A stretch of 64,000 nucleotides of DNA, taken from NCBI RefSeq assembly GCF_022869805.1, contig NZ_CP094974.1:2790001-2854000 (forward strand), read 5' to 3'. Position numbers and translations under genes: made by a program. This document shows, in pieces, positions 42,760 to 47,665 of the stretch (the first letter of the stretch is position 1; each line of letters starts with the position of its first letter). The stretch is from Halosolutus halophilus (GTDB taxonomy: Archaea > Halobacteriota > Halobacteria > Halobacteriales > Natrialbaceae). The notes below the pieces were generated by a model that did no database searches, was not told the origin of the DNA, and saw nothing but the letters and a program-made list of their open reading frames with translations.

Positions 42760-43821
42760 ATGGACGACGACGATCTCGCCGAACTTCTCGAACGCTTCGG
42801 CCTCTCGGAAAAGGAAATCGACACGTATCTTGCGATCCTCGAACACGGAGAATCGAAAGCCAGTACGATCTCCGATGCGGCCGACGTCTCCAAGCGATAC
42901 GTCTACAGCATCAGCGAAGAACTCGAGAAGCGCGGGTTCGTCGAAGTCGACGATCACTCGGTGCCGACGGTGATCCGTCCCGTCGACCCGGACGAGGTCG
43001 TCGATCGGCTCACGAGCAGCGTCGAGCGGATCGAGCCGGGGATTCGATCGCGATACACGCGCACCGAGCGCACGGGCGAGCAGTTCGAGGTGATCAAGTC
43101 CCGCCAGACGGTACTCAAGCGGATCGAGAGCCTGCTCGCGAACGCCGAGAACGAGGTGACGCTCTCGCTGCCCGCGGCCGTGCTTCCTCAGATTCGATCG
43201 ACGCTCGAGGAGACGGTCGACCGGGGCGTCCTCGTGTTGCTCCTGCTGGGCGCCACCGGCGACGAGGACCAGGACATCGCCTCGCTCGCCGGAACTGCGA
43301 GTACGGTTCGCACGTGGGACGCACTCGTCCCGACGATGCTGACGGTCGATCGCCTGCACGGACTCCTCGCGCCGAGCCAGATGCTCACCAGTTCACAGAG
43401 CGATACCAGGGCGATCGCCCTCTCGCAGGAACAGCTCGCACCGGTCCTCGCCGGCTCCTTCCTCGCGAACTACTGGCCCACGGCCGAAGAGCGGTACGTC
43501 ACCGCACCCAGCGAGTTGCCCCGGACCTACGAGGGGTTCCGGAACGCGGTCTTCCAGATCGCGTTGCATCGCGCCACGGACACCCCGATCGAGGCGACCG
43601 TCGTCGGGTCGCCGGTCGGCAGTACCGACGAACCCGTGGAACTCACCGGCGAAGTCGTCGACGTCCGCCAGAGCCTGGTTCGGCCCGTCACCTCGACCGT
43701 CCCGATCGAGAACGCGTTCACGATCGAGGTCGACGACGACCGGTACACGGTCGGCGGCAGCGGCGCGTTCCTCGAGGACTTCGAGGCGGAGTCGGTCACA
43801 ATCCGCCCCCTCGAATCGTGA
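42760..43821 (+). CDS. TrmB-family sugar-responsive transcriptional regulator
   Basis: The 353-residue protein has an N-terminal TrmB winged helix (LERFGLSEKEIDTYLAIL, ASTISDAADVSKRYVYSI), a linker helix, and a C-terminal sugar-sensing TrmB_C domain from about residue 110 to the end. TrmB regulators in archaea bind DNA at low sugar and release it on binding glucose or maltose. In Halobacterium TrmB controls glycolytic and gluconeogenic genes through TACT-N7/8-GAGTA (recalled). Its position between the GH15 and KDPG aldolase genes makes it the obvious local regulator. TTTTACTC about 39 bases upstream may be its TATA. Confidence 0.92.
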   Translation: MDDDDLAELLERFGLSEKEIDTYLAILEHGESKASTISDAADVSKRYVYSISEELEKRGFVEVDDHSVPTVIRPVDPDEVVDRLTSSVERIEPGIRSRYTRTERTGEQFEVIKSRQTVLKRIESLLANAENEVTLSLPAAVLPQIRSTLEETVDRGVLVLLLLGATGDEDQDIASLAGTASTVRTWDALVPTMLTVDRLHGLLAPSQMLTSSQSDTRAIALSQEQLAPVLAGSFLANYWPTAEERYVTAPSELPRTYEGFRNAVFQIALHRATDTPIEATVVGSPVGSTDEPVELTGEVVDVRQSLVRPVTSTVPIENAFTIEVDDDRYTVGGSGAFLEDFEAESVTIRPLES

Positions 43822-43959: not shown

Positions 43960-44043
43960 ATGGAACGCGACAGTACCCGACCGACAGTCCGGCGCTCGCC
44001 GACGATCGACCAGCCAGCGAACGGGGGACCCGCCGATGACTGA
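43960..44043 (+). CDS. Possible 27-codon leader ORF overlapping the aldolase start
   Basis: ATG 43960 begins MERDSTRPTVRRSPTIDQPA and its TGA at 44041-44043 lies just inside the aldolase gene (ATGACTGA). CTTATTT at 43927-43933 is centred 30 bases before this ATG, so a leaderless transcript would start at the leader ORF rather than at the aldolase. It could couple translation to the aldolase or be chance. No homologue known to me. Confidence 0.35.
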   Translation: MERDSTRPTVRRSPTIDQPANGGPADD

Positions 44044-44689
44044 CAAAGCGACGATCACGGACCGAATCGTCGAGAACGGCGTCATCGCGGTAATGCGCGG
44101 TATCGACGAGGACGACGTCGTCCCGGTCGCGCGAGCGATGCACGACGCGGGCGTGGGCGCGCTCGAAATCACCGCCGACGAGCCACACGCACGGGACAAG
44201 ATCGCCGCCATCGATCGCGAACTCGCGGACACGGACGCGATCGTCGGCGCGGGCACCGTCCTCGACGCCGCGACCGCCCAGTCGGTAATCGACGCCGGTG
44301 CCGAATTCGTCGTGTCGCCGCACACCGACGCCGACGTCGTCCGGACCTGCAACCGGCACAACGTGCTCGCAGCGCCGGGCGTCATGACGCCGACGGAAGC
44401 CGTCACCGCGATGGAGGCCGGCGCTGACGTCCTGAAGATGTTCCCCGCCTCGACCGTCGGTCCCGGACACATCGGGGCGCTCAGCGGCCCGCTCGGCGAC
44501 GTCGACGTCATCCCGACCGGCGGCGTCTCGCCGGACAACGTCGCCGACTTCTTCGACGCCGGTGCGGTCGCCGTCGGTGCCGGCGGCGCGATCCTGAACG
44601 ACGAGGCGATCGCGAACGGCGACATGGACGGGGTTCGGGAGACTGCGGCCACGTTCGTCGAAGCCGTCGAAGACGCACGGAGCGAGTAA
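44036..44689 (+). CDS. kdgA: 2-keto-3-deoxy-6-phosphogluconate (KDPG) aldolase
   Basis: The 217-residue class I aldolase cleaves KDPG to pyruvate and glyceraldehyde 3-phosphate, the splitting step of the semi-phosphorylative Entner-Doudoroff pathway. It has VIAVMRG, GALEIT with the conserved Glu, VGAGTVLD, VSPHTD, and the Schiff-base Lys in DVLKMFPAS, then PTGGVSPDNV for phosphate binding. The family is 200-220 residues, so the ATG at 44036 is preferred; the frame is open 38 codons further up. Context with glucose dehydrogenase and gluconate dehydratase supports the role. Confidence 0.92.
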   Translation: MTDKATITDRIVENGVIAVMRGIDEDDVVPVARAMHDAGVGALEITADEPHARDKIAAIDRELADTDAIVGAGTVLDAATAQSVIDAGAEFVVSPHTDADVVRTCNRHNVLAAPGVMTPTEAVTAMEAGADVLKMFPASTVGPGHIGALSGPLGDVDVIPTGGVSPDNVADFFDAGAVAVGAGGAILNDEAIANGDMDGVRETAATFVEAVEDARSE

Positions 44690-44904
44690 CCGTCCCCGTC
44701 CTCGACCGCGAGCAGCCGGCGACAGCCGGCGTCATCGACCCAGTGGAACGCCGATCTCGCCGACGCGGCGGCGCCAGAGGCGGCGTCTTCGCGTTTCGTG
44801 ATCTTTTGCCGTCTCCGTCGATCCGGCGTCCAGTAGCGACGATGCGTTCGGGACGCCCACGATGACAACATTACGAGATGTACTGGCGGTAGCCGACCAC
44901 CGTT

Positions 44905-44935
44905 CACGATATTTACTACGGTCGGTGAAAATTGT
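44905..44935 (+). promoter_or_regulatory. Orphan copy of the glucose dehydrogenase operator-promoter
   Basis: GTTCACGATATTTACTACGG here matches GTTCAAATATTTACTACGG at 45190-45208, and both continue with a GGTGAAA/GGGTAAA block. The TACT at 44914 is followed after 7 bases by GTGAA, a weak match to GAGTA. No gene follows it before the real gdh promoter. Confidence 0.5.
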
Positions 44936-45200
44936 TGCCGGAGGGGACGTGCCGGGCGAGTCTCGCTTGCCGGGACCGGTCCGATCGCGAATCCCTCGTC
45001 ACACCGGCCGCTCTAACGGTGGGGTCCTCCGGTTTCGTCGGTCGGTCCTTGCTGACGCCGCTACTGTCCCAGTCCCGTGAATACGGACGAGTTCGATACC
45101 GACTTCGTCTCGTACCCGGGTAGGACGACCCGGGTCCGCGGGACAAACGATCCCGGGGAACCGATAATTATCGGCGGTGCTCGTGCGCTGTTCAAATATT

Positions 45201-45216
45201 TACTACGGATAGGGTA
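45201..45216 (+). promoter_or_regulatory. TrmB-type operator upstream of glucose dehydrogenase
   Basis: TACT-ACGGATA-GGGTA is one mismatch from TACT-N7-GAGTA. It ends just before TTTTAG (45221-45226), the likely TATA centred 27 bases from the ATG. The site therefore sits next to, not on, the TATA. Binding by the local TrmB protein is inferred. Confidence 0.55.
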
Positions 45217-45249
45217 AATCTTTTAGCCCAAGCACCCGTTGGCCGAGAC

Positions 45250-46317
45250 ATGAAAGCGATCGCAGTCGAGCCCGGGGCCGGCGAGCCCGACATCGTCGAG
45301 CGGCCCCGCCCCGATCCCGCTCCCGGTGAGGCCCTCGTTCGGACCCTCCGCGTGGGCGTCGACGGGACGGACCACGAGGTCATCGCGGGCCACCACGGCG
45401 AAGTTCCCGAGGGTGACGATCGGCTGGTCCTCGGCCACGAGGCCGTCGGCGTCGTCGAAGACGCGAACGGCACCGACCTCGAGGAGGGTCAGTACGTCGT
45501 CCCCACGGTCCGACGGCAACCGAACGGCACGAACGAGTACTTCGAACGCGGCGAACCCGACATGGCTCCCGACGGTGAGTACGTCGAGCGCGGCATCGTC
45601 GGTGCTCACGGGTTCATGGCGGAGTACTTCACCAGCCCCGCCGAGTACCTCGTCCCGATCCCCGAGGACCTCGCCCCGCTCGGCTTCCTCGTCGAACCGA
45701 TCAGCATCAGCGAGAAGGCGATCGAACACGCCGTCGCCTCCCGGTCGGCGTTCGACTGGGAACCCGACTCGGCGATCGTACTCGGGAACGGTTCGCTCGG
45801 CCTCGTGACGCTCGCGATGTTCGAGGAAGTGCTCGACATCGACCGGACCTACTGTCTGGGTCGGCGCGATCGGCCCGACCCGTCGATCGACCTCATCGAG
45901 GACCTCGGCGGAACGTACGTCGACTCCCGGAAGACGCCGGTGCCCGAGATTCCCGACGAATACGAGCCCGTCGACCTCGTCTACGAGGCGACCGGCTACG
46001 CGAAACACGCCGTCGAGACGGTCGACGCGCTCGCGCCGAACGGCGTCGGCGTCCTGCTGGGCGTCCCCGAACCCTGGGAGTTCGAGATCGACGGTGGTCG
46101 CCTCCACCGGGAACTGGTGCTCCACAACAAGGCCCTCCTCGGGACGGTGAACTCCCACCGCGGCCACTTCGAGTCCGCCGTCGACAGCCTCGTCCAGCTG
46201 CCCGAGTGGTTCACTGACGACCTCGTCACCGGGGTCTACGGTCTCGACGAATTCCAGACAGCTTTCACCGACGACGACGACGTCATCAAAACGGCTGTCG
46301 AGTTCGCTGCGATCTGA
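45250..46317 (+). CDS. gdh: Glucose 1-dehydrogenase, haloarchaeal MDR type
   Basis: The 355-residue enzyme oxidises glucose to gluconolactone with NAD(P), the first Entner-Doudoroff step. Zinc-site residues match the Haloferax mediterranei enzyme: Asp38 (VGVDGTDHE) in place of the usual Cys, His63-Glu64 (GHEAVG), and Glu149 (LVEPISIS). The nucleotide fold has VLGNGSLGLVTLAM. Its ATG is 27 bases below TTTTAG, with a TrmB-like operator just upstream, so it is probably controlled by the TrmB protein of the cluster. Gluconate dehydratase copy 2 follows 109 bases downstream. Confidence 0.94.
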   Translation: MKAIAVEPGAGEPDIVERPRPDPAPGEALVRTLRVGVDGTDHEVIAGHHGEVPEGDDRLVLGHEAVGVVEDANGTDLEEGQYVVPTVRRQPNGTNEYFERGEPDMAPDGEYVERGIVGAHGFMAEYFTSPAEYLVPIPEDLAPLGFLVEPISISEKAIEHAVASRSAFDWEPDSAIVLGNGSLGLVTLAMFEEVLDIDRTYCLGRRDRPDPSIDLIEDLGGTYVDSRKTPVPEIPDEYEPVDLVYEATGYAKHAVETVDALAPNGVGVLLGVPEPWEFEIDGGRLHRELVLHNKALLGTVNSHRGHFESAVDSLVQLPEWFTDDLVTGVYGLDEFQTAFTDDDDVIKTAVEFAAI

Positions 46318-46398: not shown

Positions 46399-46414
46399 TA
46401 CTATTGTTCGAGTA
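46399..46414 (+). promoter_or_regulatory. TrmB-type operator overlapping the gnaD copy 2 promoter
   Basis: TACT-ATTGTTC-GAGTA is an exact TACT-N7-GAGTA. It overlaps CTATTACT, the best TATA candidate at about 27 bases from the ATG (46427), so occupancy would block initiation. Operator assignment rests on the recalled Halobacterium TrmB consensus and the TrmB gene 3 kb away. Confidence 0.65.
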
Positions 46415-46426
46415 AGTAATTGAGCC

Positions 46427-47665
46427 ATGAGTGTCGACTACACACGGCTACACGACCCGAACGCCGAGTACACGATGCGGGACCTCTCGGCGGAGACGAT
46501 GGGAGTGACGCGAGAGCGCGGCGGTGACCGGGACGTCGCGATCACGGACGTCCAGACGACGATGGTCGACGGCAACTTCCCATGGACGCTCGTTCGAATC
46601 TATACGGACGCCGGCATCGTCGGCACCGGTGAAGCCTACTGGGGCGCGGGTGCACCCGAACTGATCGAGCGCATGACCCCCTTCCTGCAGGGCGAAAACC
46701 CGCTCGACATCGATCGTCTCACGGAGCACCTCGTCCAGAAGATGTCCGGTGAAGGGTCGATCGGCGGCGTCACCGTCACCGCCATCTCGGGCATCGAGGT
46801 CGCCCTCCACGACCTCGCTGGCAAGATCCTCGGCGTTCCAGCGTACCAGTTGCTCGGGGGCAAGTACCGCGACGAGGTTCGCGTCTACTGCGACTGTCAC
46901 ACTGAAGAAGAGGCGGACCCGATCGCCTGCGCCGAGGAAGCCGAACGCGTCGTCGAAGAGTTGGGCTACGACGCGCTGAAGTTCGACCTCGACGTCCCCA
47001 GCGGCCACGAGAAGGACCGCGCCAACCGCCACCTCCGCGAACCCGAGATCGAACACAAGGCCTCGATCGTCGAGGCGGTCACCGAGGCCGTCGGCTCGCG
47101 GGCCGACGTCGCCTTCGACTGCCACTGGACGTTCTCCGGCGGCAGCGCCAAACGGCTCGCCAAGCGCCTGGAGGAATACGACGTCTGGTGGCTCGAAGAC
47201 CCCGTCCCGCCGGAGAACCACGACGTCCAGCGCGAGGTCACCCAGTCGACCAGCACGCCGATCACCGTCGGCGAGAACGTCTACCGCAAACACGGCCAGC
47301 GCCGCCTGCTCGAAGGGCAAGCCGTCGACATCATCGCGCCGGACATGCCCAAGGTCGGCGGTATGCGCGAGACGGCGAAGATCGCCGACCTCGCGGACAT
47401 GTACTACGTGCCGGTGGCGATGCACAACGTCGCCTCGCCGGTCGCGACGATGGGCAGCGTCCACGTCGGCGCGGCCATCCCGAACTCGCTCGCGGTGGAG
47501 TACCACTCCTACGAACTCGGCTGGTGGGAGGACCTCGTCGAGGAAGACGTCATCGAGGACGGCTACATCGAGGTCCCCGAAAAGCCGGGACTGGGCGTCA
47601 CCCTCGACATGGACGCCGTCGCGGCGCACATGGTCGAGGGCGAAGAACTCTTCGATGCGGAATAG
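46427..47665 (+). CDS. gnaD: D-gluconate dehydratase, enolase superfamily (copy 2)
   Basis: The 412-residue protein is the paralogue of the 31711-32949 gene and carries the same barrel motifs (VAFDCHW, WWLEDPVPPE, MHNVASP). It reads ITVGENVYRKHG where copy 1 has IAAGENVFRKHG, and AKRLEE where copy 1 has ASALEP; the rest is nearly identical. From memory the VGEN form and its neighbours are closer to the characterised haloarchaeal gluconate dehydratase. Its place directly after glucose dehydrogenase and behind an exact TrmB-type site makes it the likelier dedicated pathway enzyme. It converges with the GH15-like gene, 18 bases apart. Confidence 0.9.
   Translation: MSVDYTRLHDPNAEYTMRDLSAETMGVTRERGGDRDVAITDVQTTMVDGNFPWTLVRIYTDAGIVGTGEAYWGAGAPELIERMTPFLQGENPLDIDRLTEHLVQKMSGEGSIGGVTVTAISGIEVALHDLAGKILGVPAYQLLGGKYRDEVRVYCDCHTEEEADPIACAEEAERVVEELGYDALKFDLDVPSGHEKDRANRHLREPEIEHKASIVEAVTEAVGSRADVAFDCHWTFSGGSAKRLAKRLEEYDVWWLEDPVPPENHDVQREVTQSTSTPITVGENVYRKHGQRRLLEGQAVDIIAPDMPKVGGMRETAKIADLADMYYVPVAMHNVASPVATMGSVHVGAAIPNSLAVEYHSYELGWWEDLVEEDVIEDGYIEVPEKPGLGVTLDMDAVAAHMVEGEELFDAE

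Follow-up and report, generated by a model that had tools for sequence, protein, structure and literature searches.

The window, i.e. the whole analysed stretch of 64,000 nucleotides (C1:2790001-2854000 of a 5.06-Mb genome), contains the glucose dehydrogenase gene gdh (45250..46317, + strand; Pfam Glu_dehyd_C, 7.9e-95) together with two copies of its control region, of which only the second is followed by the gene. The question is which role, if any, is played by the first copy, here called copy 1. An earlier note had described it as a duplicated operator-promoter and proposed a promoter that had survived the loss of its Entner-Doudoroff gene, a decoy TrmB site or a promoter for an unannotated RNA. 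The neighbourhood on the + strand includes kdgA, encoding a KDPG/KHG aldolase (44036..44689; Pfam Aldolase, 1.8e-44), and, two genes upstream of copy 1, the gene of a TrmB-family sugar-sensing regulator (42760..43821; Pfam Regulator_TrmB, 1.4e-57), which with 148.6 bits stays below the 500-bit NCBIfam cut-off for haloarchaeal TrmB. The genome is that of a haloarchaeon of the Natrialbaceae, to which the relatives from Natronorubrum, Natrialba and Natronococcus also belong. Among the corresponding loci of relatives, a second gnaD copy was observed upstream of kdgA in L037, L046 and L048, and two gdh matches (G112:C1:2245180 and G140:C7:78193) have one internal TGA each and are possible pseudogenes.

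Two copies of the gdh control region

The duplication is most easily recognized as a direct repeat of 24 nt (44909-44932 and 45196-45219), 79% identical and 287 bp apart. The pattern derived from this repeat matches the window twice against 0.02 expected matches, and if up to 3 mismatches are permitted, three matches are found in the entire 5.06-Mb genome, namely both copies and one site with 3 mismatches. The copied sequence is confirmed and extends further to the left than the earlier note had claimed, starting at 44881 and 45169, respectively. Over the 40-bp gdh upstream unit (45169-45208), 30 of 40 positions agree with 44881-44921 in an alignment with one 1-nt insertion, whereas the next-best site for this unit in the 64-kb window reaches 25 of 40; the duplication of the gdh control region is thus real. 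An HMM built from the gdh upstream regions of relatives found copy 1 with an E-value of 8.8e-6 and the counterpart of copy 1 in the closest relative (L034) with 1.9e-4. Moreover, copy 1 (44881-44946) aligns with the gdh promoter of Natronorubrum texcoconense (-81 to -16) over 67 bp with 77.6% identity (E-value 1e-5). A DNA search of the own genome with 90 bp of copy 1 returned no further convincing copy.

Copy 1 is made up of a 27-bp element, TACTG-N17-TTCA, which we call E, and then TTTACTAC. In front of gdh, the proximal E (45169..45195, + strand) is followed by the gdh operator TTTACTAC-N6-GGTAAA (45199..45218, + strand), a TrmB-like box at a position conserved in the relatives, and by a TATA-like block (about 45220..45226, + strand), which lies downstream of the operator and not within it. 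When the gdh upstream regions of relatives are placed side by side, the operator is found approximately 52 bp and a T-rich block approximately 30 bp before the ATG; the distance of about 27 bp between the TATA-like block of gdh and the ATG would be consistent with a leaderless transcript. In copy 1, the distal E (44881..44907, + strand) is followed by an operator-like stretch (44912..44931, + strand), in which the left half TTTACTAC is identical to that of the gdh operator, whereas the right half is degenerate and stands 2 nt nearer (N4 instead of N6). At the offset of the gdh TATA-like block, copy 1 has no TATA (score -1.8 compared to 11.4 for copy 2; window rank 2e-2). The earlier note was therefore right that a control region had been copied, but with this right operator half and TATA position copy 1 is not an operator-promoter.

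In the nearer relatives of the window the operator also reads TTTACTAC-N6-GGTAAA, and in most other haloarchaea compared it combines TTTACTC with a second half resembling GAATAAA or GAGTAAA. The shift from TTTACTC...GAATAAA-like to TTTACTAC-N6-GGTAAA is seen in part of the Natrialbaceae (upstream regions L034-L160), which might reflect a joint change of the operator and its regulator. When compared to TACT-N7-GAGTA (also given as TACT-N7-8-GAGTA), which we take to be the TrmB box consensus, the gdh operator shows 1 mismatch (45201-45216), and an exact match is located at 46399-46414, 12 bp before the start codon of gnaD, a gluconate-dehydratase-like gene (46427-47665). Both sites are present among the 8 window matches to this presumed consensus with at most 1 mismatch, and copy 1 is absent from them. 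In Haloarcula hispanica, a TrmB study reports the gdh promoter as ChIP peak HAH_4332 and an overlap of the motifs of TrmB-repressed genes with the BRE (PMC10817205). According to the same study (PMC10817205), TrmB does not directly repress glycolytic enzymes in this species, so that gdh could be regulated in either direction.

Distribution and conservation of element E

In many Natrialbaceae, TACTG-N17-TTCA immediately precedes the operator and TATA box of gdh. In the genus of the window the proximal E is partly decayed, with TATC in place of TACT. A PWM of E, trained exclusively on proximal sites (17 distinct ones), gives the highest score in the window to the distal E (27.9) and the second highest to the proximal E (23.2), i.e. 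the distal E is nearer to the consensus; the next site in the 64 kb scores 11.1. Away from the upstream zone of gdh, the background reaches at most 19.0 in 3.36 million positions. This maximum disregards the proximal site of L091, which scores 26.9 by the PWM and was taken as the source of an unmasked background value of 26.9. Palindromy of E is not significant (584 of 2000 permutations), so the idea of an inverted repeat was dropped.

The distal zone was defined as -430 to -110 of gdh and could be scored in 101 of 103 distinct loci, the other two having too little upstream DNA. A distal E with a score above 20 was found in 13 of the 101 testable loci, always on the + strand and with scores of 20.0-30.4. 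These loci belong to four generic groups: the genus of the window (the window and L034), Halopiger (L046, L052), the Natrialba group (L053, L057, L061, L062, L064, L065 and L100, with the assignment of L057 and L065 resting on the gdh protein tree) and Natronorubrum (L083, L084). Weaker distal sites exist in L040 (15.4) and in L037 (6.1, decayed), and G001, a further member of the genus of the window, lacks both E sites. L064 and L065 carry a proximal E with an 18-nt spacer, to which the rigid PWM assigns a low score. The two E sites are 281-299 bp apart, except for 202 and 227 bp in the two Halopiger loci, and their spacing shows no constant helical phase. The other genera retain E at the distal site, without TTTACTAC at the place it has in copy 1. 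Mapped onto a 51-row tree of gdh proteins, the distal E falls into two groups, one formed by the window and L034 and the other by Halopiger, Natrialba and Natronorubrum; this demands a minimum of 3 changes on a tree with weakly supported deep branches. In G002, the genome of L034, the distal E is flanked by a perfect 10-bp inverted repeat (GATTTTTACC / GGTAAAAATC; -371 to -315 from gdh).

The presence of the distal E goes along with the length of the gap between kdgA and gdh. Among L036-L073, ten loci, including L064 and L065, have a gap of more than 300 bp; the distal E scores above 20 in 8 of these, 15.4 in one and 6.1 in one. None of the 8 loci that combine a proximal E above 15 with a gap of 201-276 bp has a distal E, and it is missing wherever the gap is short. 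Furthermore, E seems to be specific for gdh: it was not found in 40 further upstream stretches including those of gdh paralogs (best score 6.2), and a genome-wide pattern search of 9 genomes returned 19 sites outside gdh, all scoring 13.4 or less. Because E has no convincing score away from gdh in these 9 genomes, no regulon supports a regulator. In titles and abstracts of the open-licence literature searched, an element like E is undescribed.

The distal E and the DNA between both sites differ clearly in their conservation. Of 14 locus pairs, both within and between genera, 13 show an alignment of the distal E that scores better than 300 of 300 shuffles, the exception being the window and L053, where 88 of 300 shuffles reach the score. 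For the spacers, the local-alignment scores of 5 between-genus pairs were reached by 158, 154, 8, 32 and 40 of 300 shuffles; spacers align within a genus, but between genera their alignment is poor or absent. These alignments were scored against shuffles, because with permissive gap costs shuffled sequence already reaches an identity of 0.72. Between the window and G002, identity amounts to 0.64 for the distal E (33 bp), 0.78 for the 4-fold sites of gdh and 0.82 for the proximal E; the 4-fold sites of the window are 0.53 identical to L061 and 0.60 to L084. In a simulation of neutral decay, the chance that a score above 20 is kept was 0.065-0.115 per lineage at an identity of 0.53-0.58, a value that applies to lineages which are not all independent and to a site that was first seen and then looked for. 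Since this chance is low, the persistence of the distal E in several, partly dependent lineages suggests that it has been kept through function.

Possible roles of the distal copy

The best explanation, which we consider an even bet, is that gdh is controlled from two sites, with copy 1 as the distal one and a candidate auxiliary site. According to this proposal, an early duplication in this part of the family would have placed a copy of the gdh upstream block, consisting of E, operator and TATA, about 285 bp further upstream, where the core promoter decayed and the E half was retained. E would be the putative binding site of a sugar-responsive regulator. The proximal E adjoins the TrmB-like operator and TATA on their upstream side, which would be the usual place of archaeal upstream activating sites, and the distal E may act as an auxiliary site that raises the local occupancy of the regulator or contacts the proximal complex. 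Looping between the E sites is possible, with no support from helical phase. Against the auxiliary site we count that the window and G002 agree less in the distal E than in the 4-fold sites of gdh (0.64 vs 0.78), that G001 has neither E site, that the distal E is absent at short gaps, that phase is not constant, and that the genomes searched revealed no regulon of E. Only tentatively we go further and propose that E is a 27-bp element specific to gdh, present in two working copies about 285 bp from each other and predicted to bind a sugar regulator that acts at a distance in Natrialbaceae, and that the distal site was kept across genera while the intervening DNA was not.

Several other readings start from the same observations. 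Copy 1 could be a neutral relic, that is, an old duplicate of the gdh promoter which decays and has no present role, and the loss of TATA and of the right operator half, the decayed site of L037, the absence of the distal E from G001 and its lower identity than that of the 4-fold sites between the window and G002 would all fit. A relic would hardly be expected, however, to retain scores of 20.0-30.4 and a near-constant distance in 13 loci from several genera with diverged DNA in between, which is also unlikely under the neutral simulation, and we regard this reading as unlikely, albeit worth keeping in mind. It is improbable that copy 1 drives an unannotated RNA of up to approximately 230 nt between copy 1 and gdh that is co-controlled with gdh. 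E and TTTACTAC do have the orientation of gdh in copy 1, and a TrmB-dependent unannotated intergenic transcript of about 200 nt is known from Haloarcula hispanica (PMC10817205), but that study reports no such transcript at the gdh peak HAH_4332, and the TATA position of copy 1 is not TATA-like. Moreover, the spacer (44932..45168, + strand) shows little or nothing of the conservation across genera in sequence or structure expected from a small RNA, with alignment scores at shuffle level or weak; it has no Rfam match and its folding, calculated from the window sequence alone, is not unusual (z -0.77). The RNA promoter of the earlier note thus found no positive support. The statement that no gene follows copy 1 was confirmed, as the four small ORFs tested match neither Pfam nor NCBIfam and no conserved gene was found in the spacer. 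A conserved small protein was also considered and rejected: 127 frames gave 105 between-group hits at E-values up to 1 compared to 44-56 in 8 mononucleotide-shuffled sets, yet the best hits (0.001-0.01) were matched by some shuffles and shared no common frame or position. Likewise, a duplicated remnant of the gdh 5' coding sequence behind copy 1 did not rise above shuffles (169 of 500 and 86 of 500). Taken together, divergence, folding, Rfam and ORF results speak against the view that copy 1 is followed by a conserved gene, be it for an RNA or a protein; a transcript confined to this species may exist.

The remaining two readings tie copy 1 to TrmB or to a vanished neighbour. An auxiliary or decoy operator that titrates or loops a TrmB-family repressor appears quite improbable to us: copy 1 shares the left half TTTACTAC with the gdh operator and a TrmB-family gene is close by, but the degenerate right half, the spacing that is 2 nt short and more than 1 mismatch to the presumed consensus speak against it, as does the distal site of other genera, which has E and not TTTACTAC here. 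The decoy proposal of the earlier note is thereby weakened, the gdh and gnaD sites being among the 8 consensus matches in the window and copy 1 not. Very little speaks for the upstream region of a lost gene. Of the 40 loci of relatives surveyed, 27 have kdgA as the gene next to gdh on its upstream side, 146-612 bp away; in the other 13, which are partly annotated, kdgA is separated from gdh, located elsewhere, lost at the end of a contig or not found. No Entner-Doudoroff gene occurs in the kdgA-gdh gap of any relative examined, and a lost sugar kinase, e.g. KDG kinase, was rejected because the gaps are too short and no checked locus has one. The expectation that relatives would have a gene at this place was borne out in G002, albeit with a CARDB-domain gene of about 1,229 codons on the opposite strand (L034, 5856-9524, - strand), which faces in the direction opposite to gdh and does not belong to the Entner-Doudoroff genes. 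G001 (L035) has a CARDB homologue of approximately 756 codons upstream of gdh, also on the opposite strand. Since the genome of the window contains paralogs of this gene elsewhere and none at gdh, it was probably lost in the lineage of the window, judged by parsimony on three genomes; a remnant in the gap of the window was sought by tblastn without a convincing match. The distal E looks older than the CARDB gene at this place, because it is present in genera without it.

Comparison with known control systems

With the proposed two-site control of gdh, haloarchaea that use sugars would have E as a second conserved element in the control region of this gene, besides the known TrmB box. Its 27 bp represent a small target for finding the putative regulator, and if the distal copy works, it would provide a testable archaeal case in which a conserved site regulates a gene from afar.

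In bacteria, repressor systems such as lac and ara use auxiliary operators, in which a second copy of the control site lies a few hundred bp away. The gdh locus resembles them in this arrangement and differs in that the spacing of the E sites keeps no constant helical phase and the sequence gives no evidence of looping. Copy 2 resembles the haloarchaeal TrmB operator, known from the gdh promoter peak HAH_4332 of Haloarcula hispanica (PMC10817205), in that it carries the box with 1 mismatch and lies at the gdh promoter; in contrast, copy 1 fails the box, and E is a different sequence located upstream of it. In archaea, activator sites lie upstream of the BRE, and primary sites are aided by auxiliary ones further up, as described in PMC7408454. 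The proximal E corresponds to such upstream activating sites as a conserved element that adjoins operator and core promoter on their upstream side, and a second site follows further up; unlike in these systems, the second E is about 285 bp away, and an activator role is here putative.
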